This document shows, piece after piece, positions 28,588-63,545 of a stretch of 64,000 nt of DNA; within the stretch, counting starts at the first letter, position 1; each line of letters begins with the position of its first letter. The position numbers and the translations under genes were made by a program. This DNA is from Cytidiella melzeri (taxonomy: Eukaryota > Basidiomycota > Agaricomycetes > Polyporales > Irpicaceae), in assembly GCA_022592445.1 (NCBI GenBank), contig JABYQR010000093.1, positions 62,001 through 126,000 on the forward strand, in the 5' to 3' direction. Below the pieces are notes generated by a model. The model saw nothing but the letters and a program-made list of their open reading frames with translations. It did no database searches and was not told where the DNA came from.

Positions 28588-28838
28588 GGAGTGCGAGTCC
28601 GATAAGAAAGTTGTTCACTATCGGATTTGAACAATTTGAGCACGGAGTGCGAGTCCGATAAGAAAGTTGTTCACTATCGGAGTCATGGTGCAGGAAGAGT
28701 CAAGGGGATTCCCCGATAGCGAGAGTCCGCACTATCGGGGAAATGAGTACTTAGGGTTTTCTCCGATAGCAGGCTAAAACGCTATCGGACTGCTGGCAGG
28801 AGGGGTGGTACTCCGATAAGAAAACATTGCGCTATCGG
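28588..28838. repeat. CCGATA palindromes of the module (copy 1)
   Basis: Five members: TCCGATAAGAAAG..TATCGGA twice (in a 58-bp direct duplication), then CCCCGATAGCG.., TCCGATAGCAGG.. and TCCGATAAGAAAAC... Two more lie at 29110-29190. Confidence 0.85.
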
Positions 28839-28857
28839 GGGAGGGGCGAGGGGCAGT

Positions 28858-29021
28858 AGAAAAACATGCTTGCTACAAGCATTACCTGTAACGGGTTACG
28901 TTGCAGGGAATGCTTGAAGCCGGCGAGTATATCGGCGTGTGGCGTGAGTGGGGATCGAACCGAACGCCCTGCACTGGAGGGGGTGCAAGGTCCGGTTCGA
29001 TAACCACTACGCCACTACGCC
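28858..29021 (-). ncRNA. tRNA-like Pol III unit 1a
   Basis: The minus strand holds TGGCGTAGTGG (29004-29014), a perfect A-box, and GGTTCGATCCC (28951-28961), a B-box. It then has a hairpin (AAGCATTCCCTG..CAGGTAATGCTT) and a T5 run at 28860-28864, a typical Pol III terminator. The ends can form an acceptor-like stem. The anticodon region is instead a long stem (CTTGCAC-type arm with GTGCAAG), so it is not a canonical tRNA. Either a tRNA-derived SINE or a small structured RNA. Confidence 0.5.
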
Positions 29022-29207
29022 TTGTGAGGTTAGGCTCGGTTTTGATGTATGTAGTGTATGTGGGTATTGCTTGTGCGCAGTAGTGGTGAAAGATTGGCAG
29101 GCTGGTGATCTCCGATAGCGAATTACTGCACTATCGGGCTGTTGGGAGGAGGGGTGGTACTCCGATAAGAAAACGTTGCGCTATCGGGGAGGGGAGAAGG
29201 GGTGGTA

Positions 29208-29378
29208 GAAAAACATGCTTGCTACAAGCATTACCTGTAACGGGTTACGTTGCAGGGAATGCTTGAAGCCAGCGAGTATATCGGCGTTGTTTGTGTGGCG
29301 TGAGCCGGGATCGAACCGAACGCCTTGCACTGGAGTGGGTGCAAGGTCCGGTGCTGGTACCACTACGCCACCACACCT
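29208..29378 (-). ncRNA. tRNA-like Pol III unit 1b
   Basis: Second tandem copy, ~350 bp downstream in plus coordinates. A-box at 29360-29370, B-box at 29307-29317, T5 at 29209-29213. Here GGTGTGG can pair with TCACGCC as a 7-bp acceptor-like stem. The anticodon-position stem has eight pairs (CCTTGCAC/GTGCAAGG). Confidence 0.5.
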
Positions 29379-29833
29379 TGTGAGGTTAGGCTTGGTTTTG
29401 ATGTATGATGAGTATGTGGGATATCGTTTGTGCGCAGTGTACTGTGATGCCGTTGGCATGCAGGCCAAGCATGTATGGGAGGAAGACATGATGTGATGAG
29501 TGGTGGAATATAAGTAGGGCGACTGTGTTTTTGTGAATAAAACAAGATTTTTGGCATGAAGCGGAGAACTATGATCTGTAACGCAGCGTGGGAATTTGTG
29601 ATATTGTTGCGAGGGGGGTACAAGAGTGTGACACTGTGATGGGGGTGTTATGTAAATAGTATGTCATTTTGAACGGTTTAATGCAACTGTGAAGTTAATC
29701 CATCACGAAGCTGTCAGACTTCTTGAAGAGACCGAGATGAGTTCGCTTAGCATGCAGAAGGGTATATATATGACATTGGTTCGAGTACGGGAGGAATGTA
29801 ACTAGCCCTCTGTCCTCTAACGTGCAGCTCGCG

Positions 29834-30606
29834 ATGAACGGCATGGACGTATCCACGGTTGCGGAGGAGATTGAGCGTCTGTGTGTTGGGACGGACACCA
29901 GCAGTGTGTGGAGTGATGGAAGTGGTGAGTGCTTCTGCATGAGTGAACGGCGATGTGAACTGACATGTGGATTGTGTGCTTAGACGAGACTGTTACACCT
30001 GCGCGGTTGTTTGAGGAGGAGATTGATGATGATGAGGAGAATGAAGATGTGGATGAGGCAGAAGATGGGTACGAGGATGAGGACGAGGAGGAGGAGGAGG
30101 AGGAGGAGGATGACGAAGTTTCTGGATGGGATTCTGAGGAGGAGGAGGAGGAGGAGGAGGAGGACGAGGACGAGGACGGTGAGTTATATTTGGATTGCAT
30201 TGGGACTTCAGTGCTGAGAGGAGTTTGAGGTTCGAAGGAGAACCGACCGCCTGTGCGTTTGGTGTTGCCGCGTCCGAATCTGAGGAAGATCCGGGTGTAT
30301 GTGACGCCTGGACCTGACGGGTACGAGGGGACTGTGAGGCACCTTGAGCGACAGAGGGACCGAGTTGGGAGGACGTGGGTTCCGCGCCCTGATGGTACGG
30401 GGGAGGACCTGTACTATGTTGTGAAGCTTGAGCGATGTGATGGGTACACGCGAGTGTGTCTTCGACCGTCTGTGGGAGGTGAGCCGTTGGTTGGGGTGTA
30501 TTTGTATTGCTCTGAGGAGCCGAAGGTACTTGACCTCCATGAGCGTGCGGAGATGATGAACTGGACGTACGAGCAGTACATAGCCTGTCTTTCTCACTTT
30601 CAGTAG
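29834..30606 (+). CDS. ORF-S: small acidic protein of the module, copy 1
   Basis: Exons 29834-29924, 29984-30178 and 30230-30606, phases agreeing, for 220 codons. The N-terminus MNGMDVSTVAEEIERLCVG is followed by about 55 residues almost entirely Asp/Glu. A basic/aromatic C-terminal domain of about 120 residues follows (PRPNLRKIRVYVTPGP, EDLYYVVKLERCDGYTRVCL, ERAEMMNWTYEQYIACLSHF). A TATATATA box lies at 29762. The duplicate at 49022 is intact and differs mainly in acidic-tract length and the last residue (Q/D). Two intact copies argue for selection. Function unknown; the acidic-plus-compact-domain layout would fit a histone or nucleic-acid-protein mimic or chaperone, but that is speculation. 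Confidence 0.7.
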
Positions 30607-30760
30607 ATTAGTGTATGCGTGTTTGTCATGACAATGTGGAACAGTGGTCTGGAGAGGGAGAACATGAGATGGAAGAATGAGTGGTATTGAGCAATCCACA
30701 AACAGCTGAGTTCACCCCAAGCCTAACCTGGCCCATGAAGGCGAGATAGACGTCCCTTGC

Positions 30761-31096
30761 CCGATAGTGAAATGTATCACTATCGGGCGTATAGTCATGA
30801 CTCCCCAATAGCGCGACGTTTCACTATCGGGCGTATAGTCATGACTCCCCGATAGTGAAACGTTTCACTATCGGGTTCATAGTCATGACTCCCCGATAGT
30901 GAAACGTTTCACTATCGTGTTCATAGTCACGACCCCCGATAGTGAAACGTTTCACTATCGTGTTCATAGTCACGACCCCCCGATAGTGAAACGTTTCACT
31001 ATCGGGTTCATAGTCACGACTCCCCGATAGTGAAACGTTTCACTATCGGGTTCATAGTCACGACTCCCCGATAGTGAAACATTTCACTATCGGGGA
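30761..31096. repeat. eight-palindrome array upstream of ORF-A, copy 1
   Basis: Palindromes of the type CCCGATAGTGAAACGTTTC-ACTATCGGG start at 30761, 30805, 30849, 30893, 30936, 30980, 31024 and 31068, a 43-44-bp period. The spacer is TTCATAGTCATGACTCC or close variants, all in one orientation. The last unit is 194 bp before the ORF-A start. Confidence 0.95.
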
Positions 31097-31261
31097 GTCA
31101 TGCATTGAATAAAACTGAGACGCTCACGTGGGTTAACACGGCGGCAATCAATCTGAGTTTGATTTTGCACGCAGGCAGACGCCAGACGATCAGATTACGC
31201 TCTTTCTCAACCACTACTACTACTACCAACACAAACTCGACTATAACAACAACAACTAGCA

Positions 31262-34200
31262 ATGGCACCTCAAGGGAGCAAGGGAGCTGGGAAGAAGAAG
31301 GAGTTGACGCAGGAGGAGAAGGACGAGATGGAGTTGAAGAAGCTGACGCGTGCGCAGGCGGCGGCCAACCGCAAGCTGAAAAAAGAGGAGAGAGCAAGGC
31401 TTAAGGTGCGCGGCAGTGTATGTGTTACGATAGCAGCTGAAGGATATGTGCTTAGGAAGAGTCCTTGGCTGCGGCTGAAGCCAGTCAGAAGGACTACGCT
31501 GCTGTAGAGGAACGGATCGAGTCCATCGACGCGGAGGACGCATCGGTTGCGATTGGTGTGTCGCAGCAACTGCAGGGAAGCATTGATCGGGCGTTCCTGG
31601 GCTTTGCGTGGCTTGACATCTTGAGCAAACCGGCACTTTCGTTCGGTGCGGTGAACAACCGTGCGATCAACGCGCGGGCTGTGGAGGAACTAAAGGACAG
31701 CATGTGGAATGAGGGCTTGCGACGATTTGACAAGACGACGTTCATCCCGGTGATGATTTCGAAAACGTTGCTGAAGGAGCAGGAGGCTCCGAAGGAAGGC
31801 CAAGGCCAAGGAAAAAGCCAAGGCCAAGGCGCAATTCACCGAAAGCGAGGAGGAGGACGAGGACGAGGAGGGCGGGGGAATGGGCTCGAAGGGAGGGCGG
31901 GGGAAGCAAGGGGGTACACAGCTGGTGAAGGACTTCACGACGAAAATCGACGTGTACCCGTACCTCCTCGACTGCCTGAAGAGCGTGCCGAAACGATTGG
32001 AGGCGTTGGGGGGGCAGCATCGCCATGCTGCTGTCTCCGCGATCAGGGCGTCGATTGACAAGGACACGCTGAAGAAGTCTGCGCAGAAGTTGGTGGAGTT
32101 ACGGGCGCTGGGTGAGCATATCCGGGATGTTATTCGGAAGGCAGACGAGGAGGAGCTGGAGCTTCGGGGCGCGGAGTGGGAGAAGCAGGCTGAAGAGACG
32201 CGGGCGCTTATCGAGGCGGAGGAGGAGAATGTGCGTCGAGTGAAGACGTTTGGTAAGTACAAGGGGAAGTGGCTGATTGGAGTGTATGCGGAAGGTAAGT
32301 TAACAAAACTTGGTTTGGAATTTCACTTTTACTTACATGTGCATGACTTTAATAGAGGATTTGACGGACGAGACGCGGACTGCGCTGGCGGCGAACAAGC
32401 ATGAAGTGCGACTTCGGGAGACGCCTGAGGAGGCGTTGATTACGATCTGCCGGACGTACAAGAAGATGCAGGACACGCACAATGTGCTGAAGCAGGGTGG
32501 TGAGCTCCTGAAGAAGGAGATTGCGTTGGTGAAAGCTGAGCTTATGGCGGCGATGGAGCTTGCTGAGGTTGAGGTTGTTGATGGGGTGCCGCAGTACGAG
32601 GAGATTCCGGAGGTGACGTTTTTGCCGGAGGACTGTGTGGAGGAGGAGCCGATGGAGGTGGATAATGTGGAGCGGTCTCTCTCTGAGCTTCGGAGTGCGC
32701 GTGCTGTGCAGTTTCTAGGGCGAGTCAAGCGGAAGGTTGAGCGGCTTGAAGGTAAGTTGGAAGAGCTGCGGCAGGAGAGGTCGTTGTACGAGGAGAACGA
32801 GAAGCGAAGCAAGAAGGAGCTTGAGAGGGCGTGGCAGGTCCGGATGGTGAAGATCACGAGTACGCAGCCGCCAACGATCCAGAAGCTGGTGGGGCATACG
32901 GTGACGCTTGAGTTCCTGCTGACGTACCTGGCGTATCGCGAGTACTACCCGGCGTTGGACGTGACCTCCTCGAGGTGGATGACGAAGAACATCATGCAGA
33001 CGCCAGGAGAGGTGAGTGACCAACCAGCTGGAGAGGAATAGTTACTGAAGAGGTTGTTTAGCTGTACTGGCGAGCTGCGAAGCACATGTTCGACGTGCAG
33101 GAGCTTATGCTGCGTCCGATAGAGTCGCGATGGACGTACAAGGAGGTGCTGAGCGTGATGCACGAGGAGGAGAAAGCGACGATGGCGGTGGCGAAGACGA
33201 GTGCGAAGCTGCACATGCTTCGGCAGGGGATGACGGAGGAGCAGCGTGTAGCGCTTGGGGAGATCACGGAGATTGACCAGGTGGAGGAGCTTACGAAGCA
33301 CGACCACGCCCGTATTGAGGGGCTGATCAAGGACTACGAGTACACGCATGAGCACAAGGGGTGGAAGAATGTTGTGGAGATGCACAAGGAGGAGGAGGAG
33401 CAGCTTGGGCCCCAGATTGAGGCGATGGCGGCGGCGCGCGCGAAGTTGGCTGAGCTTCTTGCTCTTTGCCGGAGTGCTGTTGGTGTGCCTGCGCGAGATG
33501 CGCTGACGACGAAGATGATGGAGTACGTGGACGATTCGTACAAGAAGACAATCCGGCCCTCGTACTACATCTACGCAGGCACGGTCGGCAACTGGAAGTA
33601 CGACGAGTGCCTGAGGAATTACGCGAAGACGGTTGCGGCGGAGTTTGCGAACGAGGCGAAGCGTTTCCCAAAGGACGACGTGGAGAGTAGGAACCGGTAC
33701 GACACGTATGCGTGGCGGGCGTTGGTCCTGCTCGGCGTGCGTACTGCAGACTACACGCCGTGGCCGATGGCGACGAGGATTCCGCTGGAGGAGGCGTACA
33801 AGAGGTTGTCGAAGAGCAAGGAAGGGCTCCAGGAGGTAAGCAGCCACCCACGTATTTCCCGATAACAATTCGTTTTGTTATCGGGCAATGCGTCCTCTGC
33901 TACGTTGGTGTGTTGGGCGATAGGTTGGGTGGCGAGTGACCCGATAGCGAAACGTCTCGCTATCGGGCACTCGCCCACAACAAGCATACCCCGATAGCGA
34001 AACGTCCCGCTATCGGGGAAGGCGGCGAATACCTCTACCCGATAACAAAACGTTTTGTTATCGGGGGAGGTGGTGAACCCCTCTACCCGATAGCGAAACG
34101 TTCTGTTATCGGGGGAGGTGGTGAACCCCTCTACCCGATAGCGAGACGTTTTGTTATCGGGTAGAGGTATTCGCCGCCTCCCCCGATAGCGGGACGTTTC

Positions 34201-37200
34201 GCTATCGGGGAACGCGCCCCCAGCCTTTAGCTTCCGACTGATGCACATATGGATCGACGCTGACGAATGGGTGCAGGTCGTCATGTGGTTCGCGCCGTTG
34301 ATGCTGTATTCGCACCACAACACCAGAGGACATGGTGTGAAGGACCTCACACTTGCCTTGTTCAAGTCGTTGACGCTGCGTGGGTCGTGCATCGCGAGGT
34401 CAAAGATTGAGGAGGCTCAGGACAAGCTGTTCGAGCGACTATGGGGATGGCCGGAGGTGCTGGACACTCTGCAGAGGAATGTGGGCCCTGGCTGTCGGTA
34501 CACACCACCACAGCGCATGCTGAAGAATACCGATATCACGCAATGCGCGTTGGCAAACGTCATCAACTCGGCGTTGGAGGAGGATGACCCAGACACTGTC
34601 GACCCGGAGGTTTGGGCTCGTTCAATCAACAGACGCCCTGCGCCGACGGGGGACGACTTCATCAACGACGAGGGTGTCGACGATCCCGAGGCGGACGACG
34701 AGGAGTTTGGCACAACTCAACGTCCAAGGGTCATCACGGCGGCGCCGTCCAGGGCTGCGCGACGCAGTCAGACATCAGCCCAGGCGGAGGAGGAGGAAAA
34801 GACGAAATCGAAGCAGCCGAAGCAGCCTTTCGACATCGCGCCGTACGTAGAGATCCTCAAGCGTTTCGAGCAGCCATACCCGCTGGTGGTGTTCTGGGCA
34901 GGGAGTGTCCGCAGTGAAATCAACACGATGCTGAACACTGCGAGGCAGGCGCGTGCACAAATCGTTGCGACGAGCGATACGTACATTCTGAACCTCATTG
35001 CTCGCAATCTGATCGACTGGCAGGCATACACGAGCAAGAGCTGGGGGAACATCTCTGGTCAATGGCTCGGGTACGCGCTCCTGGAGGAGCAGGTCATACG
35101 CATGTACCGGCCCCAACTGCTCGCCTCGAGGGAAGGCGCATATGTTCGGCACGTCCTTGGGGAAGCTCTCAAGGAATATCTCAAGAAGGGTGTCGACGCG
35201 TTTCCCTGGGCGGACGGTATCGAGAGCACTTGGGAGGACACGACGATCTTGATGCCCTCGTCGCAGCTCGCGATTATCCAGCGAGATGTGATCAACTACC
35301 GGCGGGAGGCTCGGAAGGAGGTGGAGGATGCGCTGAATCGTGTGCAGAATCTGGCCGCTGCGTCAGCAGACACGTCGGACGGGCGCCTACCAACAAAACC
35401 GGAGGGCAATGCGCCCATTTCGCCCGAGGTGGGGTATGCCCTTCAGGTACTCCGAAGGGTATGTATTTATTGTGTTGTGGTGTGAACGAGATTCTGACTT
35501 ATTCTGCCCATAAGGCTTTGCACTTCAATGTGGAGCGGAACATCTGGTGGCATGAGCACGCACAAATGGAGAAGCTCCCGGACCACGAATTCGACGACTT
35601 GCTGGAAGAGAGGCCTAGCCATGCCGACGACTTCTTTTCGGCTGAGATAAACGATCCAGGAGTTGGCTCGGTTGTGGAAGGACCTGCATTCCGGATGCGT
35701 CATATGAAGGATGGTGTGCCGACGTACGGAGAGCTGCCTTTTGTGAGCCTCTTGCGTGGTTATCGGCAGTTTGTAGTGGAGAACCGTAAGGAGTCCCCGG
35801 CGGCAGCAGCAGAGCGGGAGAAAAGACGTGAGATTCGGAGGGAGATGGTGAGCGTGTTATAGCTGGATGAACTTGTGTGCTGACCACAGGCTATGTATGC
35901 TTCAGAAGGCGAAGGAACGTGAGTCGAGATTGGTGCAGCCGGAGGAGCCAGCGGAGGCAGAGCCGTCAGGGCCGCCAGAAGCGCGGTCTCCACAACGAGC
36001 TACGAGGCGGAGGCAGCCGTCCCCAGTGCAACTGCAATCTGAGGAGCCAGAACCCGCATTGCCCGTGAAGCAGGCGAAACCGAGGCCCAGGCCAGTAGCG
36101 CAGGGAGCTGTGCGGAAGTCGCCCAGTGCGCCGAAGACGCCACCGCGTCGCAAGTCTCGCAGCTCGAGCGAGAAGACGCCGCGGCACAAGAAAAAGCGCA
36201 CCCATTCGGAGTCTGAGCGCGAGAGTGGTGATCCGTCGACCACGACGGATGACGGCCAGGTGAGCAACGTGGAGGAGCAGCGGACGCTGAAGAGACACCG
36301 TGCTTCGACGGTGACGTCGCAAAGCAACCCCTCTGGGGCACAGGAAGCACCGGCAGGCCCTGGGTCAGAGGACGAGTATGACAGTGCGGCCGACCGCTTA
36401 GCAATGGTGCAACTTGCTGAGGCGCTGGAGAAGGGAGATGGGCGAGCTGACGGGATGGACCTGGACGAGCCTGACGCGGACGAGATTGAGCGGCGTGATC
36501 TGGAGGAGGCGAAAAGACGGTCTCTGCAGGATGCGCGTATCAATGCGCAAGGGGCGCTGTCCACACCGGGGGCATCTGGGAGTAGGGACCGCTCTGGAAC
36601 TGTTACGCAACAGAGAAGATCAGAGCGGCCTTCGACGGAAGCAGGTACAGGCACGACCAGTGGCAAGCCGACTTCGCGTGCGCCTTCGACGCCACGGAGG
36701 GCAAATCCTGCTGTCCGAGGGAGCACTGCTGCACCTCCGTCACGGTCAGGATCGGTCTCCCAGCCTGCGCACCCAGGTCGTCGAGAGCACTCTATCGCAC
36801 CTATGTCGCGCTCTGGTTCAATCGCTCCTAGACAAGGGTCTGCGTCGCGCGCAGGCTCGACGGCTCCTGTAGAGGCACCCTTGCGACACCCTGGCCACAT
36901 GCGTGACCCCCCAGAGCCCATTAGCGAACATGCTGATGAGGACCAGGATGCCGACGGAGAACAAGACGAGGAAGAGGACGGGAGGGATGCCGCTGGGCAA
37001 GTCACAACGGACGACGAGGAGGATCGCGTTGCCTCATCTTCACTGACCTCCATTGGCGACGAGGACCAAGGCAGCACGCACGACGATGCGGACCAAGGCA
37101 TGACGCTCGATGACACAGAGCTTGTTGGTACGTTATCATTGGACTCACTACACCGCTACGAGTGCCGGGGCCACCCCGATAGCGAAACAGAACGCTATCG

Positions 37201-38029
37201 GGGTATGGCACTCACAGTGTACCATTGCATGGTACCCCGATAGCGTCCCGTTTTGCTATCGGGCAATGGAGTTACACAGACCAGCACTACTGGGTACCCC
37301 GATAGTGAAACAGAACGCTATCGGGGTACCATGCAATGGTACACTGTGAGTGCCATACCCCGATAGCGTTCTGTTTCGCTATCGGGGTACCCAGTAGTGC
37401 TGGTCTGCGTAACTGGCATTGCCCGATAGCGAAACAGAACGCTATCGGGGTACCACGCAATGGTGCGCTGTGGCACCCATTGCCCGATAGCGTTCTGTTT
37501 CGCTATCGGGCAATGCCAGTTACGCAGACCAGCACTACTGGGTACCCCGATAGCGAAACAGAACGCTATCGGGGTATGCTTTGTGATCGCCTGACTTCGT
37601 GAACGTGTCGCAATCCATTTCTGACAGCTCACACCCATTGCAGATAACTCTCATCAACAGAATGACGATCAACCTGGTAGGTGGACGAGGCCTAACCTGT
37701 GCCTAACTACGCATCTCTGACAACCATCTCTAGTGTCCAACGCTGCTGCTGAGCAGTCGACTGAGCTTGTGGGCGTAAGTCACCTCCATGCTGTGTGTAC
37801 TATTCCTTCTCACGTGTAACAGCCCCGACGCAGTCCTCGTAAGCGGGGGCAGGGCTTGCGCGGACTCGTTGAGGTGAGTCCGTTCCGCTCATGTGGCTCG
37901 CTCTGCTATGGAACTCACATTTGATCGGTCAAGAACGCAACTGGTGTACCTCCTTCCGCCAACATGACCAGTTCAACACCTTCGCAAGCACGCACCGACA
38001 GGGACTACGTTGACAAGAAGTGGGTCTAA
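31262..38029 (+). CDS. ORF-A: large coiled-coil, charged protein of the unrecognised element (copy 1; one frameshift)
   Basis: Eleven exons: 31262-31405, 31456-32294, 32356-33011, 33062-33835, 34277-35458, 35515-35847, 35906-37127, 37644-37676, 37734-37774, 37823-37873, 37934-38029. All joints are in phase, but exon 2 changes frame near 31,780, so the total (5371 nt, ~1,790 codons) is off by one: a real lesion or a base error. The N-terminus is Lys-rich, followed by an acidic stretch (TESEEEDEDEEGGG) and heptad-rich segments around 32.4-32.9 and 33.1-33.4 kb. The middle part (34.3-35.8 kb) is globular, with WF/WW-rich blocks (RNIWWHEHAQMEKL). Exon 7 encodes a long disordered S/P/R/E region with basic nuclear-targeting-like clusters (PRHKKKRTHS). 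Introns 4 (441 bp) and 7 (516 bp) are enlarged by palindromes; the others are about 50 nt. A second copy starts at 63702. No known family recognised. Confidence 0.72.
33859..34210. repeat. seven palindromes inside ORF-A intron 4
   Basis: Members vary in the inner stem in matched pairs (ATAACA/TGTTAT, ATAGCG/CGCTAT). The spacer GGAGGTGGTGAACCCCTCTA or GGCGGCGAATACCTCTA appears forward three times and once reversed (34158-34184). Confidence 0.93.
37177..37575. repeat. seven palindromes inside ORF-A intron 7 with inverted spacers
   Basis: Inner sequences GCGAAACAGAACGC and GCGTTCTGTTTCGC alternate. One spacer (TATGGCACTCACAGTGTACC...) appears at 37202 and reversed at 37323. A second (CCAGTTACGCAGACCAGC...) appears near 37265 and 37512, and reversed near 37388. 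Confidence 0.95.
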
Positions 38030-38820
38030 TACATGTTCTCCCCGTTCATGATTCGCCGTCGCTTCTCTCGCCTCCCCGCTGCTCGCGTTCTTGCCTCCTC
38101 CAACGCCTTTGTTCCTCACCACACGCACGCACGTTTCGTCCGCCGCCTTGCATGGCCACATTTCTACATTACTCGCTACCCATCTCGCATAACATACTCG
38201 TCTCTTTATAATACGCACGCACTTTATCTCTTACTGTATCTTAATGCCAATGTGTTCGCATCATGATGTCCCCAATTCATCGACGCCGCTCTGAGACTAA
38301 AGCCCGTGCAATTTGTGTCCCTGAACTTCGAATTCGGTTGTAAGGCACATCTGCTCCTTGCTCGCTCCAACCCTTCACCCATGTTTCAGGAAATTGATCC
38401 GATGTCCGCTCGCTAATCCTCAATACACCAATCACAGTGAACGCGCCAAGCACCCGGTGTTCGTTCTCATCCATCCCTTTCTTACTATTCGTCTGCTACA
38501 CTCCGCGCGTGTCTGTAACTTTGCGAAATCCAGTTATAGCTGCATCTCGCTTGGCTCTCATGTTCCTGTCAACTAGCCTCATCGCTTGTAGGTAGCCGAT
38601 ATTCTTACTGGCGGCGCATGCATAAATTCAGACTGCATCCCGACAGTCATCCCTTTCGTCTTCGCCGCCTTCACAATCCTCTCATACCCTTCCACACCTC
38701 GCAGACTCTCTTGCTTTGCCACCTCGCTTTGTCCAGCAACTCGCCCAATCTCGCATCAAATGGAACAGTTAGTGTCTCATTACACCCACTTCCCACCAAG
38801 CAATCTACTCAACATTGTAT
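38030..38820 (+). other. intergenic/promoter region between ORF-A and ORF-B
   Basis: No coding unit supported. A TTTATAATA box lies near 38205. An ATG at 38760 opens a 22-codon frame (MEQLVSHYTHFPPSNLLNIV) that would join ORF-B only with a frame change, so it may be the true start with a lesion or an unrecognised junction. Confidence 0.4.
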
Positions 38821-49779: not shown

Positions 49780-49931
49780 TTAGTATTAGTTGTAGCTGAG
49801 TGCGATATGTGATGTTTGCTGTGAGGTGATTGCAAAGTGTGAATTTTGAGGTGTGGCCGAAGCGTGTAAGCCAGCAAGCCTAACCGTTCCTAATGTGGTC
49901 TGCATTGCTGTGTGCAGCGAGGTTGTACAGT

Positions 49932-50709: not shown

Positions 50710-51498
50710 ATGTCAGAAGCACCACTGGAATCAAGGCTCGCATGGAAGAAGGTCGAGCCAGTCATTCAGGGCGATCCGGACTCGCACGCTGCCCTTAAGC
50801 AAGTGATTTCGTTGGCGGAATCTTTCGTCGCGCTCAAAGACGGCTTCAATGGCGACGATAACATGTCCGCCAACATTGTCGATTTCGCCTGCACGGTAGA
50901 GATGTGTATCACTCAGGCATGCATGGTAACCAGTGCGCAAGAGCTTTCCTTTGCATGCCGCAAGCTTGTGAAGTCTGTCGAGCTTCTTTGGCAGCGGCGC
51001 ACCGAGCATATATGCATGCAATCGTAAGTACAAATGTATCTGCAGTTAACGCAATAACTGATGTTCGTCTTGTTAATGTCAAGAACCTCCCTGGCTCTGC
51101 CGGAAACTGTCAATATCTGTGGTTCGCCTGCGCAGCGCTCTCTCGCTCGCTACAAGTGAGTATCATGAATTTAATATGCGCTCTCATGTCTGAAGATCAA
51201 TAGACAAACTACTCTCGATGACTACTTTACTGTGACACAAAAACTGGCCCATAATCAGCGCCGTGCCATTTATCCGCAGGCTCAACGGTCAGTCTCTCAC
51301 CTCCAAAACTGCACGGTATGAACAGCTCTCACACATTCATTCAGACTCCCATCGTTTCGCCAACTCCCAATTGACATTTACTTTTACATTGTCGCTCCAG
51401 TTTCGAGATCCAAGTATCCGGCCTTGGACGTGTTGTCGGCGCCGTCTGGATATCATACGAGCACGCGAGCTGGAATGTATGATCTCAAATCACTGTAA
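50710..51498 (+). CDS. small unrecognised gene
   Basis: The first exon 50710-51023 is convincing: MSEAPLESRLAWKKVEP, ALKQVISLAESFVALKDGF, QELSFACRKLVKSVELLWQ, ending at a GTAAGT donor. Downstream exon candidates lie at about 51084-51155 (ending GTGAGT), about 51259-51291 (ending GTCAGT) and from about 51402. Two alternative frames are possible, one ending GLGRVVGAVWISYEHASWNV, so the 3' half is tentative. The N-terminal part is helical. It resembles N-terminal domains of fungal NACHT/NLR-type proteins only loosely and I do not claim that. Confidence 0.5.
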
Positions 51499-51828
51499 TA
51501 GACATTATACGCACAACAAAGTATAGCATGATTTTGAGCGCACTCTGTTGTGGCGGAGGACTTGAAAATTGGCTCACCAGGCATCGAATAAGTTCCATTT
51601 TACGTATACACTCTGCGCGTGACTGGATAGAATGGGCACGTACCAATAGCGACAGTCAGCAAAGACCATATTGCCATGTCTGAACAGAGTGCGAAGCCCC
51701 ACTGCACTCAGCGTACCAGCGCGCAATCCTGACATTCCAGTCTACTGGTTAGCATACGTTTCCGAAATATATAACAGTCCCAGCGTAGAAAAGAGACAAC
51801 ATGGAGGACATGACGATGAAGCGCGAAG

Positions 51829-54800: not shown

Positions 54801-55026
54801 CTCTCGGCGTGACCGCGGTCCAATAGTGTAATTGGTTGGCCAGTCTCGTGTAGAGCCATGGCCAGGGCAGCGGAAGGCGACCAATGTTTTTTGTGAGGTT
54901 TTCCGGCGCAAGCTTCGGGAGAGTGGACATGTTGGGAGAGACATAGAGGCCAGGGTAGCGGGGGATATCGGTGTCAGAAGCCCATAATACCGAGGGCTTG
55001 GGCAGGGTTTGGGGGAGGGTCGACAT
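51829..55026 (-). CDS. single-exon 1065-codon protein with an RS-repeat domain
   Basis: An uninterrupted frame from ATG 55026. The N-terminal ~300 residues are globular (YPGLYVSPNMSTLPKLAPEN, LPLPWPWLYTRLANQLHYW). Then come a Ser-rich linker and about 35 imperfect SPPRRSR/SPRRRSR units around residues 525-645 (about 53,090-53,460). The C-terminal ~370 residues are also globular (LFAYLEAKPSDFVMPPPTL, ...HHRYFVYARDPQ). I recall similar multicopy hypothetical proteins in Agaricomycetes but know no function. RS repeats occur in splicing and nuclear-speckle proteins, so a nuclear or RNA-linked role is possible. The intact frame suggests a live or recent gene. Confidence 0.7.
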   Translation of the reverse strand: MSTLPQTLPKPSVLWASDTDIPRYPGLYVSPNMSTLPKLAPENLTKNIGRLPLPWPWLYTRLANQLHYWTAVTPRETQYTGLLQPLAGIKVVQGNDNQWRLENVQEWRDLEAFLRRVLDAMKRTFPLGSYTPLLVQIDRNTFPWPQDYNYDRSWPTKKQAKSFLGLVRGVFRINVSKVTYAGHVLPKHWLDTLQHRKLVSEHEARMLRRSTICLVGDKADQSTTDRLGLVVDVTVGAMGSTLENLKDLINHFQLPVWLYFGPRPAVSEHPWSTEYLPSAVELEASLRQPATRFAWDEWDEEVAEARDVVGVESMGGPSSSSAPSSSSAWGSLDTHWPSSVEGTNIVHVPRATSSQVSNVTRPPGPLYVATRGQSSTTGQAPGETPQQFFARREKVSAAKLAQMNPAQKARVQAREVLHANLELPNKSHNCQVFRWEESDDSSGAWNRVLVGKPRWRDLWADTARSQRRYNAVFNEFDIWEELDPSATTEDQELVESWDYFDDAPRLQNLRTAASPQAETLPELPSRSPPRRPRSPPRRPRSPPRRPCSPRRRSRSPPRRSRSPPRRSRSPPRRSRSPPRRSRSAARRSRSPRRRSRSRSPRRRSRSPRRRSRSRSPRRRSHSAPRRSRSPPRRSRSPRRRPRTPPLAPQPIASTSGSTSSSTQMPQSGAPELLQRKGIAFDQALSYRYGILTSAAVTVDVDEEATPREKEIYKFMGIINEKVGPGYRTPMCELFAYLEAKPSDFVMPPPTLTDLVPGTALGHPLHRQNNLIVRTVMDNEQHHRYFVYARDPQANDVSYSLCLADPVTVNHLLRSGVGPSLDDVTGALLRWGVPFNTLQSIADPTVLQPTPPMPSYFNLVPLGLGLIEHRHKFTIADYEDYLEYREEVIKSVQGRAALLRGGLLWRLARDAYADDSAVYDGPSGFQTQCNHRILDGLDYVDDVLSPHQEDVICGVYRVMPGKYHVSWTNYNADYISEHPENGPSGTAYRSWWPTVTTWSQSGVDLDYWSARNEQFFVNHRKAILDGKVQPKTAQEWRRTLPHRKAAKTNVLTNIGELSGRALPAAM

Positions 55027-55381
55027 ATCGGCGCTGCAGGGATATTAGTTTGGAGGCACAACCTGATCAGGGTAGGACACTTACGAGTTGTGATGGGGTC
55101 GGTGAGTGGCGAGTGTCTACGGCACAGGATGTAGGGGGAACTTGGCGACTATCAGCAACGAGCGAAAGCGTAGCGAAAATTTGTACTTACGAGCAGAACA
55201 GTTTACGAAAAGACCTTTTCAAATGTTGGCCTTCTCCAAGAGGCGGCGCGTCCTTGCGAAAGCTTGGCTGTCGCGAGCAGACAAGTCCAGGCAGAAACTT
55301 GGCTGCAGGCTCTGATGCTACGGTGGTGACGAGTGACGTGGACAGACAGATGCTCCGCTGTCTAGACAGTCAAGGGTGAAG

Positions 55382-56800
55382 ACTCCGGTAGCAGATACTC
55401 CGCTACCGTGAGTTTATGGAGAGGAGGAAGTGGTACAGCTGGTGGTGGTGGACTCCGGTAGCAGATGCTCCGCTACTGTGTCTGAGGACGTGTGTTGAAG
55501 GTCGTCGTCGAGATGTAGGTGCTGGGCGAAGACTCCGGTAGCAGATTCTCCGCTACCGTGAGTGTATGGACGGGAGGAGGAGGTACAGCTGGCGTGAAGG
55601 ACTCCGGTAGCAGATGCTCCGCTACCGAAAGTTGGAATGTGGGTGGTGGTTGTGGTGGTGAAGGAGAACTCCGGTAGCAGATGCTCCGCTACCGAGAGTT
55701 GGAATGGGGGTGGTGGATGGTGGTGGTGGTTGCGGTGGCGAAGGACGATGTGGTGGTGGTGAGCTCGAGGAGGACTCAGGTAGCAGATACTCCGCTACCG
55801 AGAGTTGGAATGGGGGTGGTGAATGGTGGTGGTGGTTGCGGTGGCGAAGGACGATGTGGTGGTGGTTGCGGTGGCGAAGGACGTAGTCGTGGTGGTGGCG
55901 GTGGTGAGCGACGAAGTCGTGTGAGTTGTAGTGATAGCGAGAGTGATGGGAGCGAAGAAATAGATTGTGAGAGTAGTGGTGGTGGTGGTGGTGGTGGTGG
56001 GGGCGTTGCAGGAGGAGGAGGAGGAGGTGTGGTCGCCGTGGTACGTGGTGGTGGCAGTGAGAGTGGCTTGGGCGCCTGAGAAATGTTGGGCGCTCCTGAC
56101 TTTGCAGCGTCGCGTCGCGTCGACCAAGTCCAGCCAGACTTCGCACACAGCCAATACCACCACCCCCAAGACCACCTCCACCTCCACCTTCAACGTTGTC
56201 ACTGCCACCACCACCACCACCTCCTTCTTCTTTGCTCTCACCACCACCAATATCACCACCCACACGTCTTCACCACCACAACCACCACCCACATTCCAAC
56301 TCTCGGTAGCGGAGTATCTGCTACCGGAGTCCTCCTCCTTCTGCTTTGCTCTCACCACCACCGATATCACCACCACCCATACGACTTCGTCCTTCACCAC
56401 GCCAACTGCTCTCACCACCACCCACACGACTTCGACCTTCACCACCCCAACCACCACGACCATCAACCACCCACATTCCAACTCACGGCAGCGGAGCATC
56501 TGCTGCCGGAGTCCTCCTCCTTCTTCTTTGCTCTCACCACCACCGATATCACCACCACCAATATCACCACCACCGATTCGTCCTTCACCACCCCAACCAC
56601 CACCCACATTCCAACTCTCGGTAGCGGAGCATCTGCTGCCGGAGTCCTCCAACTTCTTCTTTGCCCTCACTACTACCAATATCGCTACTACCTATACGAC
56701 TTCGTCCTTCACTACGCTAACTACTACGACTATGAACTACCTACATTCCAACTCACGGCAGCGGAGCATCTGCTGCCGGAGTCCTCCACCACCAGCTGTA
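55382..56800. repeat. GGTAGC/GCTACC palindrome cluster with mirrored halves
   Basis: About six CTCCGGTAGCAGATGCTCCG-CTACCG units in 55382-55805 and about four reversed units (CGGTAGCGGAGCATCTGCTACCG-type) in 56309-56790. They are separated by GGTGGT/ACCACC-rich simple sequence that changes strand near 56,100. One unit family has the paired change GGCAGC..GCTGCC. The whole is a loose ~1.4-kb inverted repeat just upstream of the 1065-codon gene. Confidence 0.88.
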
Positions 56801-57096
56801 CCTCCTCCTCCCCTCCATACACTCACAGCCAGACAATTCGCAATCATCAATGCCCGACTCTTCTACCCTATAGGGATACGCGTGGCCTTTCATGTGATCT
56901 AATGATGCGCCTCTGCGCTGTCTTCTCTTCTTCGACGACACCGCCTTCTCATTCCCTGTCTCTTTATTCGCTTCCTCCTCTCTCTCCTCGCTTCCTCCTC
57001 TCTCTCCTCGCTTCCTTCTGCCTACTCATCACCTTCTCCCTCTCCATCACCGAAGGTGACCGCCGCGACCGACGCTGCTACTACGATCCGCACGGT

Positions 57097-57158
57097 ATGA
57101 CGTAGGTTCCTGGCTGTAACTACAGCGCTCTGTAGTTACAGCCAGGAACCTACGTCAT
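57097..57158. repeat. perfect palindrome, 29-bp arms, loop CGCT
   Basis: The arms at 57097-57125 and 57130-57158 are exact reverse complements (ATGACGTAGG...CCTACGTCAT). It lies in a ~229-bp unit that is directly duplicated downstream. Confidence 0.97.
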
Positions 57159-57325
57159 TGGTACTGTGGTGGCGCAATCACGACCGTCCCGGACATGCTC
57201 GCGGTCAATTCTGATTGGTCCATCAAGACCGTCGTCCGAAGCAGCGTTGCTCAGCCAACAAGGTGAAGATCGCTGCAGGATCGCTGTCACGCCGCGACCG
57301 AAGCTGCTACTACGATCCGCACGGT

Positions 57326-57387
57326 ATGACGTAGGTTCCTGGCTGTAACTACAGAGCGCTGTAGTTACAGCCAGGAACCTACGTCAT
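57326..57387. repeat. perfect palindrome, 29-bp arms, loop AGCG
   Basis: Same arms as the copy at 57097 with the loop reverse-complemented, followed by the same flank (TGGTACTGTGGTGGCGCAATC). Direct repeats of AACAAGGTGAGGATCGCTGC and the GTGCTCGGCAGGCGGAATGC block continue to 57670. Confidence 0.97.
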
Positions 57388-57738
57388 TGGTACTGTGGTG
57401 GCGCAATCACGACCGTCCCGGACATGCTCGTGGTCGATTCTGATTGGTTCATCAAGACCGCCGTCCGAAGCAGCGTTGCTCAGCCAACAAGGTGAGGATC
57501 GCTGCAGGATCGCTGCAGGATCGCTGTCCCTTAGTTGCCGACCGTGCTCGGCAGGCGGAATGCTAACTAATTGAGCAACTGACAACAAGGTGAGGATCGC
57601 TGCAGGGTTGCTGTCCCTTAGTTGCTGACCGTGCTCGGCAGGCGGAATGCAAACTAATTGAGCAACCGACGATATATACGATGAGCGGGATAGTTCAAAC
57701 GTTCCCGCCCGCCCATATTTTCCCCTGCCGTCAGTGCC

Positions 57739-60700
57739 ATGCTGCCCTCCGGCCTCGTATATGATGTCCAGCCTACCCTGACAGCTACATTAGGGTTAAT
57801 ACGACCTGCCAATCCTCCTGCAGAAAGACGGTTACCCGAGTTGTGGACTTACGCGGCTCACCATCCCCAACGGCCGCAACTGGGCAGTACGACCGGCCGT
57901 ACTTTTGTTTTTTTTATTGATACCACGCCCAACGGCAAGGCGAAATGGGATGCAATTGCGGATTCACTTGAAATTCCCCACGGTGTCATGGGAGACGTGC
58001 TTCAAAGCCATCCTGGTGAGTCATGCGGTATGTGCATTGTATCCGCCTTACCTAACCTTGAATCGCTGGTTGCCGTAGCCTGGACAAAGCTTGAGGCTGG
58101 CGATTATATATTTGCACGCGACTATGCAGGTATGGGTCGACCAGAGAATGACATACTCATGATATGGGTGGGAAATCCGTGAGTATTCTGTGACCTCTGC
58201 GTCCGCAATTTCAATCTAACTTCCAACCCTTACCCCAGTAACATCCTGGCGGATGCCGCAGAAATGCACGCAGAGCTCAACGCCGCGCGAGAACCCATAT
58301 TGGGCGATCCAAACCTGCGGACATCTACTCAGGTAGCGTACGAGAGGGCCGATTGGCCCAAGGAAGTATCACAAGACGGTCGTTGCTACAGCATTGGCCA
58401 GACAGTCGAGCGTCCTCGTAACTCTGATGCTCCCCCCGCAGCATCCAAAATCTTTGACGGCCAGCCTTCGGAGATGCACCATCATCAAGCGCAATTGTTG
58501 CGTGTAAGTACCCTCCTACCTATTTAAATGCGTGCATACATCTTACACCGGCATCTACTTAGGCGGTTTCTAGATATACGGTCCGCATGTATGAACAGCA
58601 GGCTCCCCAGGCACCGCAGATCGCCCTTCGTCGGTGGCGAGACATGATCAACGTCCCTCGCATTGGCCACGACGATAACTTCTATTTCGATGCGTTCCAG
58701 CTAAACTTAGCCCCAGCATCTGCCACCCACTCTCGTGAGTACCGTTCGCGCACTAATGGTATGCACCGCCTTTCACTCACCAGGACTCAACCAGAGGCCA
58801 CACTTGCAAAGCTGATGGGAGCGCGTTTTGGTGCACCCCATAGAGACCAGGGTGACAGCCCTTTCCACCTGTCCTCCATGACCGTTCTTTCCGATCTACC
58901 GTCTGACTATGACCCAGGACGTTTTTATGTTCTTGCAATCGGGGTCTTTGTAGAGTTGACACCCTTGCTCAACGTTTATTTTTGTGGACGTCTCCGTCAT
59001 GGGGGCACACCTCCTCTGGCACCACACGGGCAGGAGCCAATTTCGTCAGCATACCGTATGGTTGTAATTGCCTATCCCCCAAGTCGTATTGCCTCTGGCG
59101 AGACGCGACACGCATTGGCTGCAATCAATCCCGATGGCGACCCACTTTATTTATCCCCTGAGATGACTGGAGTCTCGTATGTTTTTTTTGTAATTCACGT
59201 TAACCGCCCATCATCTAACCTGCACTGTTCACAGCCTTGACAATCTGGCCCAAAATCAACGTGCCAACGCCGCGGCAGATGGCCTGATGACCATGCACCC
59301 AAAATCGTTATGTCGTTTTTACTTCAGAGCAATGGCGCAGCTGACCGCCACACTGCTCGGTCAGCTCCCAGCTGACTTGAATGTCCACTTTGATCGCGAA
59401 GCGTACTTGAAATCCATCACGGCCCATCTGTCTGACGGAATGTTCAGCGCCGAGGGCTTTGATCTTGGCCCAAACGGATTCCTGCATCAGCCGGATGCTG
59501 CTGTTGTTGCTCAACGGCTGGCGGTTCGCAAGGCAGTCACGGGGGATTTGTTTAATCACCACGCTCCCGCCATTCCGGATGTTGTTACTCCTATACCCAC
59601 TGCACAGGACGATTGCGAACCAGGCCGCATCCAGGGTCGTCCGCGGCGCTCAGGTGTTATTCAGTCATCTGGAATCACAAAGGCCAAAGCTGTGGATCGT
59701 ACCGGTGAGTTCGCAATCAACTAACTACTCACACATCCGGGTATTGACGCTCCTCCAGCTGCAACAAAAACGCAATTACGCAAGCAAGTTCAGACCAGTC
59801 AGCTGTCGCAGTCGTGGGGCATGTCTATGCACACCCCAAACTGCTTGAACGCTGCACAACGTCTGAACACCTCTGCACCGAAGCCTGCCCAGCCCAAGAG
59901 GTGTGTAAAGCAGCCTGCCAGACGCCGCAAGCTTCGGCCGGTTGTACGTTCTCCCGCCCCAGATGGTTACTCGTTTGTGTATGTCATCAATTGCCCAGTG
60001 AATGTGTACTCACCGTCAACACAGCTCAACAGATCATCCAATTGACGGTGCTTTAACACCCTTCTCACGTCTGTCTCCCGCACTCCACGCATATGAGCCT
60101 TCCCAAACTGCCCCTATCAACGCCATGTATGTTGACAGCCCGGACGCCGTGCAGGATGCCATGCAAGTTGACGAAACCGATGTTAACCCACTGTAAGCTC
60201 ATACTTGTCCTATCACCTCCGGCTTATAATCACATCTTACATGTTGTGATGAGCAGATCTATGTTTGGCTCTCCATCGTGGTCTTCCGCACAACCGCTGG
60301 ATATTGCCGCATTGGACCAAGCCCTTGGCCGTGTTGTTGCAAACCCAGTCGCCGGTAGGTTGCATAAGCGTGGCACACCTGAGCGCCGCCGTGCCACTCA
60401 ACGCACCGCGCACTTCCATAACAATGTTGACGATGAGGAAGAAAGTCTACAGGATGTCTCTGACACTGAGGACGATAACCCTGATGACCCCGACTACATG
60501 GACAACCAGTACCTCAACAATACTCGAAGCAATCAGGACCTAGCCAACAACAACGAAGTTGATGACGAGGATGATGGTGAGAGCGATGATGATGGCGACA
60601 GCGATGATGACGACGGAGGGCTGGATGAAATCCTTTGCGGCCACCGTGGTGTTTCCAACAATGCTGACGGACGTGAGCTAAGCCGTAAGCATGTCACGCT

Positions 60701-62680
60701 ACATTCATACTTTCTCTCTAACATCAATTGTTTAGGTCAAAAGTGGTTCCAATGTGTGACGGTATCCAGCGTTCATGCTGCAAACGACGCGGTCATTCAG
60801 GCGCGAGCTGACATGCAGGGTGCTTCAAAGGAGACTCTCGTCGACGTCATCAACCAAATGGACGCGATTGTCAACTCGGTGCCCGCTGTACTATCCGAAT
60901 CCAGCATCGACGACTCGGTCATTGATCGTACCCAGAAATTCGCGGAACACCTTACCCAGCTCCGAGCATTCACCAATCACACTCGCGTATGGTTGACCGC
61001 GTGCCAATCACGCATCATGGTCTCGGAAACCATCCTGTGGATGCATATTGTTGGTGCCTGTAAACAACGTATCAATGTGACGGTCCTCTGCCTTCACGGA
61101 GCGCTAACAGAGCCGCAGGTCAATGCTCATCACGCTACTCAGCCGCCTGTGGTTGAGTCTCAACCCCTTCCCCGCCTTTGCCAGCACGTCCTTGACCGGT
61201 TCATGTCCGCAGGAGGGGGTGTACAAAAACCGGTGGAAATACCATCACGCAGCTTCTTCCCCCAGCTCGAGCCGCAGGTCTTTGTCATGGAGTTTCCCCG
61301 TAGACTTCTGACGGGCACTGATCTCTGCACTCATACGGTGGACACGGTCGTTAATATTTTACGCTCCTGGTTTGGCGTTCCTCGCACCTTTCATACCGAT
61401 GCCCGCTGCGACTTCATGAGCCTGCTGGTCCGCCATGTCGGGTGGGGAATGTGCATGCTGGAGAGCACCTGGGTCATCTACGAGAAAATGCCGTTCTGGC
61501 TGTTCAATGACAAAATCCGACCCGTGCGTAAAGCTGGTAAAGTGGCAAAAGTTGCTTACGTGCCAGGTTCCATGTCGAATTTTGCCGACGCGCTATCTCG
61601 CTCAGTTCTTGCAACACGCACATCACAGGTCTTCCGCCTTCTCTACCACCTTCCCAATCAGTACGAACTCCTCGTCCAAGCTGCATGCGACTTTGTTCAC
61701 CATCCCGCTAAACGAACCGCACACCGGCAAGCACGGTTGGACCTGCTGAATCCGTCGACCGCCAAAACCAATCTCAATGCGCCCACACCCCAGCCACTGC
61801 CTGCTGGTGAAGGAGCTATGCACATGGTCGACTTCCTTCGCAATGCTTATGCTCTGCGCAACGCACACAATAATGATGTCGTGGAGGGGGCTTCACCAGT
61901 CCAGCAGGTCATGCTCAGCAACCTGGACTTTTTCATGCCGCTTCGTGATGACGCACCCACTCGCCGCGCGGTCCTTCGGGGAATACATCCATCAGTTGCC
62001 AGAACAACATCGGGTCTCTTCTCGATGATGTTGGTCCGTCTTGTGACCTTTAACACGGTTCCTCTGACCGACCGCAACAATCCCTGCTTACAGGTGGAAT
62101 TTGCGGATCTGGAAGCCTTTGATACGTGGCTGGCGCGCATGCGCACTCACTACAAAACTAACGACGATTCTTTCTTCTGCAACAAACAAGCATTCAGTCG
62201 GCGTCCTCTCAAGCAGCGTGTATTGGCGAACAAAGCAAAAATCTGGGATGTTGCTCAGAAGTGCAGCTGGGAACACCGTGATGCTGTTGCATTTGGTCCA
62301 ACATGGAGCTGGCTGCTAAAGCTCAAAGGTCTCCCGGGTTTTGGCAAGCTGACCAAGTATTTGCTGCTTGCCGATCTCTGCGGTGCCAGTGCAGTTCATA
62401 GGCCTACGGTGGAGGAAATGGGCAGCGTTATCCACACCCTTAACACAGGCGCAATCGATGGTCTTCGTCGTCTGCAGTACTTAGATCCTACATCTGAACG
62501 TCGACCCCCCCTCCCCCCTTGCCAATTGTCCTCAAGGCCTTCCGTAAATTCTTTGAGGACGTGCACCTTCAACTGGGCAATGACGCTGAGAGCATTGGGT
62601 GGAATACGATTAATGCTGAGCACAGTTTGTGTAAAATTAATCGTGTGGCTCGCAAGAAGTGTTATCCGTCCATAGCCTAA
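57739..62680 (+). CDS. large protein with a possible 2-oxoglutarate/Fe(II) dioxygenase core; one frameshift near the 3' end
   Basis: Exons 57739-58178, 58239-58503, 58563-59176, 59235-59704, 59759-59972, 60025-60192, 60257-60684 and 60736-62680. All phases agree, ~1,515 codons, off by one nucleotide because the frame changes in a C-rich tract (62505-62518) before VLKAFRKFFEDVHLQLGND and the end CYPSIA. Exon 3 has GAPHRDQGDSP (HxD), 53 residues later GRLRHGGTPP (distal His) and 18 residues later AYRMVVIAYP (Arg). This order and spacing fit a double-stranded beta-helix dioxygenase and resemble fungal TET/JBP-like proteins, a family expanded with transposons in basidiomycetes. This is inference. 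The middle (60.4-60.65 kb) is strongly acidic. The C-terminal ~600 residues are unrecognised. A GATATATA box lies at 57670. Confidence 0.6.
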
Positions 62681-63194
62681 TTTTGTCTCACTTTATCCTC
62701 ACAATATGTCTGGCCGAGTGCATCACAATGTTGCCATCACAAGCTAAAGTCTGGACCATCACTTTGATAACAGTTTGGGGTGAAAATAGGGGTTTGTTTC
62801 GGAGCTTGGGACCCACATGGTTACGGGCCTGCAAACAGTTGGTGCCTGGCAGCTGCACAGCTGTTTGCGCACCTGGAGCGGGAGAGTTATACACAACATC
62901 GCAAGCCAGCAGTCATTGCAGTCAATAGACACTCGACCTGGCAAAATGCTCACGAACAACTTGAAGCAGCGTAAGGCTGACAAGGTAATGTGCAGAAGTA
63001 CAATATACAATATACCGATCACAGCCAATTCTGCTTAAGATAAATATTGGTGTGGCGGTGATACGAGCGTGTGCACTGCTTAGACCGCTATTGAGTCTCA
63101 TCGTGAAGGCACCGCCTTATCCATCAGGCAAAAAAAACTTTTCAAAATATGGCCCGGTTTGCAACTATTGCTGTGTGCAGCGAGGTTGTACAGT
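62681..63194. other. 3' flank, no gene recognised
   Basis: No supported coding unit. The last ~30 bp repeat the entry sequence found at 49905. Confidence 0.5.
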
Positions 63195-63545
63195 CCGATA
63201 ACAGCTTCTTGTGTTATCGGAGTATGCAGTAGCATGCTCCGATAACGCAACAGGCTGTTATCGGACTATGCAGTAGCATGCTCCGATAACGCAACAGGCT
63301 GTTATCGGACTATGCTACTGCATACTCCGATAACGCACAGGCTGTTATCGGACTATGCTACTGCATACTCCGATAACACAAGAAGCTGTTATCGGACTAT
63401 GCTAATGCATGCTCCGATAACGCAAGAAGCTGTTATCGGACTATGCTACTGCATACTCCGATAACGCAACAGGCTGTTATCGGACTGTGTAGCTGTAGCC
63501 CAGCATAACCCCTCCCCCGATAACGCAATGTGACGCTATCGGATG
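63195..63545. repeat. eight-palindrome array upstream of ORF-A, copy 2
   Basis: Palindromes start at 63195, 63239, 63283, 63327, 63370, 63413, 63458 and 63517. The inner sequences are AACGCAACAGGCTGTT or AACACAAGAAGCTGTT. Spacers AGTATGCAGTAGCATGC and CTATGCTACTGCATAC are reversals of one another. The last unit is 185 bp before the ORF-A start. Confidence 0.95.

Follow-up and report, generated by a model that had tools for sequence, protein, structure and literature searches.

A large family of short palindromes lies in one part of a 64,000-nucleotide stretch of the Cytidiella melzeri genome (Polyporales, Irpicaceae), and the questions raised by this locus are to what the palindromes belong and what they might do there. 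The stretch (hereafter the window) covers positions 62,001 to 126,000 of contig JABYQR010000093.1 (C725), and the coordinates below count from its first letter. An earlier note on this DNA reported about 60 members between 28.6 and 63.5 kb, none in the first 28 kb, and a tie to an unrecognised element, in which we model two large genes, here called X and Y. Both counts agree with ours. Between 28599 and 63542 we count 59 exact copies of CCGATA-N13/14-TATCGG, of which 54 measure 26 bp and 5 measure 25 bp. They form 11 clusters of 2-8 sites each, and the first 28.5 kb of the window contain no exact palindrome, the sole loose match there being one with two mismatches at 7168. When the search is relaxed to at most two arm mismatches and lengths of 24-28, the window gains 4 one-mismatch sites, every one inside a cluster, and 2 two-mismatch matches outside the clusters, at 7168 and 56543. 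On contig C321, which carries a colinear copy of the element, the relaxed arms add 3 one-mismatch and 2 two-mismatch matches, some of them doubtful, to 31 exact sites. That so few sites are gained indicates that the arms are conserved in sequence, in line with the note's description of the outer arms as nearly invariant. The unit of the element at 28358-47609 (unit A) holds 42 of the palindromes, and 300 first-order Markov simulations of this unit produce 0 palindromes in total.

The palindromes were then traced through the genome (49.7 Mb, 731 contigs), where the pattern occurs 352 times per strand as compared with 14 times for the reversed-pattern control. An asymmetric subset of the pattern gives 102 genome matches against 0 in its control, and the 100 of these 102 matches that are listed all fall on 13 of the 731 contigs. 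Twelve of the 13 contigs bear the left end of the element and the remaining one (C630) bears its genes. The palindromes thus follow the element contigs and are not scattered evenly without a link to genes, which bears out the tie proposed in the earlier note. The link is not perfect, since contig C496 carries element genes of a third type and none of the listed subset palindromes. A search of 28300-50100 at Rfam gathering scores returns 0 families, and literature searches for such a repeat, judged from the search results, surfaced no description. A viral origin was considered and rejected: a stricter pattern requiring the outer C and G is present on 12 viral contigs, as single sites and never as arrays, and a gene Y exon has no relative on the viral contigs.

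The architecture of the site is highly regular. Among 168 half-sites, tallied with the CCGATA core imposed by the search pattern, the consensus is a 10-bp half-site, YCCGATARYR, mirrored around a free 8-bp centre; column -1 is Y in 167/168 half-sites, column 7 is R in 167/168, column 8 is Y in 155/168 and column 9 is R in 164/168. When each CCGATA is paired with a TATCGG within 60 bp, the window after 28358 has 54 arm pairs of 26 bp, 5 of 25 bp and 1 of 60 bp, and 27 kb of C321 has 30 of 26 bp and 1 of 25 bp, so that 90 of these 91 arm pairs are fixed at 26 or 25 bp. It had been proposed that the inner stem varies in matched pairs, and an excess of paired over unpaired inner-stem changes was set beforehand as the test. 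We evaluated pairing in 84 sites of length 26, of which 72 are distinct within clusters, omitting the six 25-bp sites. Watson-Crick pairs are found at columns 7, 8 and 9 in 48, 46 and 44 of the 72 distinct sites, respectively. Columns 7 and 8 exceed a global shuffle (P = 0.0045 each) and column 9 does not (P = 0.13), but when bases are shuffled within clusters no excess is left at columns 7 and 8 (P = 0.43 and 0.69) and column 9 is marginal (P = 0.08). Columns 10-17 show no pairing excess inside clusters, with column 13 at 0.04 in the global shuffle. Because the excess is lost inside clusters, the pairing reflects a half-site common to each cluster and not compensatory change. The matched inner stem therefore holds against the global shuffle only, the site-level excess is not there, and the claim that symmetry rather than one sequence is conserved gives way to arms that are themselves near-invariant. 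Between the two possibilities left by the earlier note, a structure or a dimer-bound site, the best reading of the invariant arms and fixed spacing is a predicted dimer-binding DNA site and not a maintained hairpin.

Unit A (28358..47609, plus strand, ~19.25 kb) is a palindromic multi-gene element delimited by left-end matches, by a second unit (unit B) that abuts it at 47610 and by the colinear copy on C321. The left terminus (28358..28520, plus strand) is a sharp border with 25 genome matches on 17 contigs; 24 of the 25 start at query base 1, and the remaining one is the detached end of another match. The right side of unit A carries 88-bp tandem repeats (47391..47609, plus strand), and because these occur at only 3 places genome-wide including this one, the right end is less clear than the left. 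Unit B is a second copy arranged head-to-tail. Its left part (47610..50056, plus strand) contains palindromes at 47851-48384 (6 sites) and 49932-50045 (3 sites), and its continuation (63167..64000, plus strand) contains 8 more at 63195-63542, with ~150 bp that resemble 49904-50052. Pieces of gene X or gene Y are present on 11 contigs. The element, which has a fixed left end and carries two very large orphan genes, appears, from its sequence, to represent an undescribed family of mobile elements. The left ends (25 matches) outnumber the right-end repeats (3) and, by coordinates, appear to be joined to different inner points of other units, for example on C431 and C349; the many left ends and few right ends suggest copies with a fixed left and a variable right end. 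Near the right end of the C321 copy there is also a ~4.9-kb insertion (L067:1954-6878) flanked by a short repeat of ~4-5 bp.

The eight clusters of unit A are placed outside its modelled X and Y exons and are spread along the whole unit, with midpoints 1.9-3.3 kb apart. Cluster 1 (28599..29187, 7 sites) adjoins the left end and is 96-99% identical to C321 where aligned. Pattern searches place cluster 2 (30761..31093) upstream of gene X, with 5 exact sites and 3 with one mismatch; cluster 3 (33859-34208, 7 sites) falls in intron 3 of this gene and cluster 4 (37176..37572, 7 sites) at its 3' end. By the same searches, cluster 5 (39659-39923, 5 sites) lies in the predicted intron 5 of gene Y and cluster 6 (3 exact sites at 42007-42172 and a near site at 41944) in its intron 6. 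Downstream of gene Y, cluster 7 (44260..44419, 2 sites) adjoins the 3' end of a minus-strand Y-like open reading frame (ORF), and cluster 8 (45983..46428) has 6 sites with a period of ~84 bp, where C321 has 2 sites. None of the 42 unit-A sites touches a modelled X or Y exon, and these exons make up 9,123 of 19,252 bp; the chance that all 8 clusters fall outside them is ~0.6%, or (1-0.474)^8. Three clusters with 15 sites lie in introns 3, 5 and 6, whose splice sites are common to C321 and whose phases match.

The gene models behind this placement combine a synonymous/nonsynonymous codon comparison with C321 and a splice-aware codon model. Gene X (31262..~37127, plus strand) is a large orphan of ~1,700 codons in 8 modelled exons, based on the splice search and the codon scan against C321. 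Its intron 3 (33836..34276, plus strand, 441 bp) has a donor and an acceptor common to C321 and phase 0/0; taken alone, the codon model would place the acceptor within the last palindrome (34189), while the comparison of unit A with C321 favours 34276. Just before cluster 4, where gene X ends, there is a donor-like GTACGT at 37128. Gene Y (38821..43926, plus strand) is a large orphan of ~1,350 codons supported by the codon model and by four depositor models (P0001-P0004) that lack exon 1. Intron 5 of gene Y (39570..40058, plus strand, 489 bp) is joined in 0 of these 4 models, all of which start downstream of exon 1, and is inferred from its conserved donor GTAAGT, its conserved acceptor and its 2/2 phase alone. 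Intron 6 (41881..42220, plus strand, 340 bp) has conserved splice sites in phase 0/0 and is joined in 4/4 depositor models. The palindromic introns are thus 340-489 bp long, as compared with 47-71 bp for the other modelled introns except for one 128-bp stretch that contains a tiny, uncertain exon. The gene Y of the window itself appears damaged, in that part of exon 3 in P0001 reads, by eye, unlike P0002-P0004. The minus-strand ORF (44600..45322) was detected by sequence comparison and the codon model and is paralogous (~35% identity) to the C-terminal region of gene Y, forming an inverted partial duplicate of gene Y within the element.

Searches for relatives of these genes give few matches. 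No Pfam match over the cut-off is found in gene X (1306 residues submitted), gene Y or the other tested element ORFs, and weaker matches below it, for example LMF1 (0.0038) for 46497-46802, are regarded as chance. No known transposase is recognised in the tested ORFs. A search with the whole gene Y protein, in which 7,993 candidates were scored, gives 4 matches, all 4 in Cytidiella melzeri; searches with a gene Y ORF and one gene X exon against length-limited candidates give none, and neither does a PDB sequence search with three queries.

We also compared how the palindromes and their surroundings have changed between copies, mainly between unit A and its colinear copy on C321, the remaining gene-bearing copies being compared almost only by coordinates and identities. 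In gene X, the exons are 62-70% identical and the short introns 44-79%. In gene Y, exon 1 is 79% identical, palindromic intron 5 has an identity of 0.60 and exon 2 is 78% identical, and from ~40.2 kb exons 3-6 are 92-98% identical. The gene Y introns at 40265, 41354 and 43552, one of which is the 128-bp stretch, are 98, 98 and 96% identical. In contrast, neither palindromic intron 6 (0.54) nor the gap around cluster 7 (0.55) can be aligned, although palindromes are present there in both copies. Clusters 1 and 8 are an exception to this fast turnover: they align at 96-99% where both copies have sequence, with different site numbers. The types of gene X and of gene Y exon 1 are concordant on seven contigs, with type A on C725 (unit A), C477 and C630 and type B on C321, C328, C349 and C431; C349 also bears an A-type gene X fragment at its start. 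C590 is A-like (86-89%), unit B is B-like (51-62%), and a third type (46-49%) is represented by C496 and C565. For the gene Y exon that follows intron 6, the main pieces on the seven typed contigs match unit A at 89-100% identity, and C328 and C321 also have smaller pieces at 75-91%. The high identity of this exon beside unalignable arrays indicates that parts of the units have been homogenised, whereas the arrays have been renewed, by replacement or rebuilding, around the same site. The arms of types A and B are identical, and a difference in their inner columns reaches 54/924 in a cluster permutation, which leaves a cluster-specific or type-specific inner code a weak candidate.

Taken together, these results point to the palindromes as putative docking arrays bound by a dimer, through which a protein dedicated to the element, or a captured host GATA-type protein, keeps the element active; this is the reading we put forward, at somewhat less than an even chance of being right. 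Half-sites YCCGATARYR would face each other across the 8-bp centre, with 2-8 repeats in each long non-coding gap, at gene borders and in long introns. The protein that binds them would be specific for this sequence and would come either from the element, perhaps from gene X or Y, or from the host as a captured GATA-type factor; it would coat the element at intervals of ~2-3 kb, and the coated element would stay transcribed or unsilenced, as VANC does for VANDAL transposons. The arrays would expand and be replaced fast, and only variants that retain the site would persist. What the sequence itself shows is the sites with their symmetry and locked spacing, their tie to the element, their position outside modelled exons and within introns, and array turnover around an unchanging motif. 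Both the binding and the identity of the protein, like the activating or anti-silencing outcome, we infer from this arrangement. An element-tied site that spans introns and 3' gaps and is kept while its surroundings change suits a protein loaded along the element as a whole more than it suits a promoter switch. The observed/expected CpG ratio is 0.92-1.09 in unit A and 0.17-0.90 in the first 28 kb, a contrast that escape from methylation would allow but that the youth of the element explains as well. A narrower proposal, which we regard as rather unlikely, is that this basidiomycete element family, in which no transposase is recognised, has independently evolved a VANC-like system. Its own dimeric protein, probably encoded within gene X or Y, would bind YCCGATARYR-N8-YRYTATCGGR arrays in introns and gene gaps every 2-3 kb and shield the entire element from silencing, while the arrays are constantly renewed and the site is retained. 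If true, motif-array anti-silencing in a fungus would suggest that the strategy arises repeatedly; the 26-bp site would be a clear probe for fishing out the protein, and silencing escape could be tested in a mushroom-forming fungus.

Several observations weigh against protein docking and have to be set beside the other explanations. Part of the sequence around cluster 5, which we assign to intron 5, is translated in depositor model P0003. Further candidate reading frames close to clusters 1 and 8 score low in the codon model, and "non-coding" is firm only for X and Y as modelled. The tested element ORFs contain no DNA-binding domain or enzyme over the Pfam cut-off, and the AlphaFold models of two exons, the one following intron 3 in gene X and the one following intron 6 in gene Y, are unusable, with predicted local distance difference test (pLDDT) values of 33.5 and 35.1, respectively. 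CpG is also near 1.0 at KDZ transposase loci (median 1.01), so a high ratio may only mean youth, and the likeness of the arms in types A and B leaves a VANC-style divergence of targets unclear. Finally, the RNA of the cluster 3 intron folds far better than shuffles (z = -26). This last point favours an RNA reading, in which transcript hairpins would serve as 3'-end signals between genes and as folding aids that shorten long introns for splicing. The 28-mers of 84 sites have a median RNA minimum free energy of -13.2 kcal/mol, and in 8 of 17 cluster regions, mostly A-type arrays, the spacers add to the fold with the palindromes held fixed (z of -3.1 or lower), but in the other 9 they add little (z of -1.8 to +0.9), so that large-scale folding is not constant. 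In transcript sense, the non-Watson-Crick pairs in the unit-A introns are 9 G-U, 2 A-C and 4 other, as would suit RNA, but those in the C321 introns are 5, 7 and 5, and both copies together (14, 9 and 9) show no clear skew. With near-invariant arm sequence, no site-level covariation within clusters and cluster 2 upstream of gene X, we judge the RNA reading improbable; a covariation-maintained RNA or DNA hairpin was dropped as the principal explanation on the vanished pairing excess and the G-U/A-C counts, with some probability left to it by the strong folding of several arrays.

An ordinary host GATA transcription factor that drives the element genes through paired sites, with no dedicated protein, is a more serious competitor, though still an unlikely one. 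Each arm carries CGATAR, which is an HGATAR site; two of them are inverted within 26 bp, and column 7 is the purine noted above. AreA/NIT2 prefers at least two HGATAR sites within 30 bp (PMC4246892). ORF stretches of at least 60 aa at 28358-50060 show no GATA-type zinc-finger spacing, with two chance-like C2H2-like matches, and this points to a host factor. The site is nevertheless longer and stricter than HGATAR (CC before GATA, YR after the purine), its spacing is fixed, and it lies in introns and between 3' ends besides upstream of gene X. The arm-core-arm geometry invites another comparison: here two 10-bp arms flank an 8-bp core, in the manner of Cre- or Xer-type sites. Sites for a recombinase or transposase that moves or shuffles gene blocks of the element would also suit the mosaic pattern seen between copies, in which nearly identical and divergent blocks are mixed and the switches occur near clusters, and the presence of both site orientations within arrays (cluster 4). 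The block borders and unit joints that we read, however, all lie outside the palindromes. At clusters 6 and 7, four borders are 46-263 bp from the nearest palindrome, coinciding with the intron 6 splice sites and with the flanks of cluster 7; another falls within exon 2 of gene Y or where that exon ends (~40.2 kb), and the joints at 28358 and 47609 are not within palindromes. These identity steps speak against cassette exchange at the sites, and gene-cassette shuffling by a recombinase was dropped on this ground; together with the lack of a Pfam-recognised recombinase in the tested element ORFs, they make such sites a very unlikely explanation. Passive arrays, in which palindromic DNA spreads by slippage and unequal exchange free of coding constraint, would account for the 6 sites of cluster 8 in unit A as compared with 2 in C321, for the differing cluster periods and for whole clusters that are self-complementary. 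Drift alone would not keep the same arms and 25-26-bp spacing in unalignable arrays at equivalent A and B positions, and we hold this to be the least probable account.

The earlier note's range of 28588..63545 holds the palindromes, but also a palindrome-free 13-kb block inside unit B (50057..63166) with a 1065-aa ORF, a Tet_JBP-like ORF and an 860-aa orphan ORF. Because it lacks palindromes and ~150 bp of unit B stand on both sides of it (85% identical), this block is, by its sequence, foreign and not part of the palindromic element. The Tet_JBP match (58587-59240) is weak (E = 0.0018, below the Pfam cut-off). The 1065-aa ORF has 73 genome matches, some on contigs with a KDZ transposase such as C318 and C549, and the block is perhaps part of a TET-bearing transposon. 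A link of the palindromes to the 1065-aa/TET block was dropped, as many contigs with the 1065-aa ORF are without listed subset palindromes. The KDZ transposase has 97 genome matches, none on C725, C321, C328, C349, C431, C477 or C630. On C587, a left end of the element is followed by the 1065-aa ORF at a similar distance. In the TE-rich (transposable element-rich) first 28 kb, positions 20001-24000 show CpG depletion (observed/expected 0.17) and a TpG/CpA excess of 1.54, as for repeats that are methylated or mutated in the manner of repeat-induced point mutation. The same region holds two stretches of ~425 bp (11935-12364 and 23705-24128), each 89-90% identical to its own reverse complement and 97% to the other, which form a separate foldback repeat.

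Compared by description only, the element resembles the Starship giant transposons of Pezizomycotina as a large fungal multi-gene mobile element. Starship transposons use a tyrosine recombinase, whereas none is recognised in the tested ORFs of the palindromic element, which is ~19 kb long and belongs to a different phylum. The TET/JBP transposons of Agaricomycetes of the KDZ (Kyakuja) and Plavaka groups (PMC12730594) are likewise multi-gene, and a Tet_JBP-like ORF is present in the block within unit B; in contrast, the window has no KDZ match and the palindromes do not track the 1065-aa ORF family. With the GATA sites of AreA/NIT2 (PMC4246892), the palindromes share two HGATAR cores within 26 bp, but the half-site here is longer and near-invariant, the inverted spacing is fixed, and the arrays sit in introns and 3' flanks and are tied to one element. 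The VANDAL transposons of Arabidopsis differ in having a single YAGTATTAY word instead of an inverted pair; the host here is a basidiomycete, and Pfam recognises no VANC, VANA or Mutator-type transposase in the tested ORFs. Their VANC motifs are described as tandem repeats in introns, intergenic DNA and terminal non-coding DNA (PMC5735166), the motif arrays as differing greatly between related copies, and VANC proteins as removing silencing (PMC5735166 and PMC10398659). The likeness to the palindromes lies in an element-specific short motif concentrated in non-coding DNA including introns, as in unit A, and in tandem arrays that turn over fast while the coding parts stay alike and the units within an array change together.

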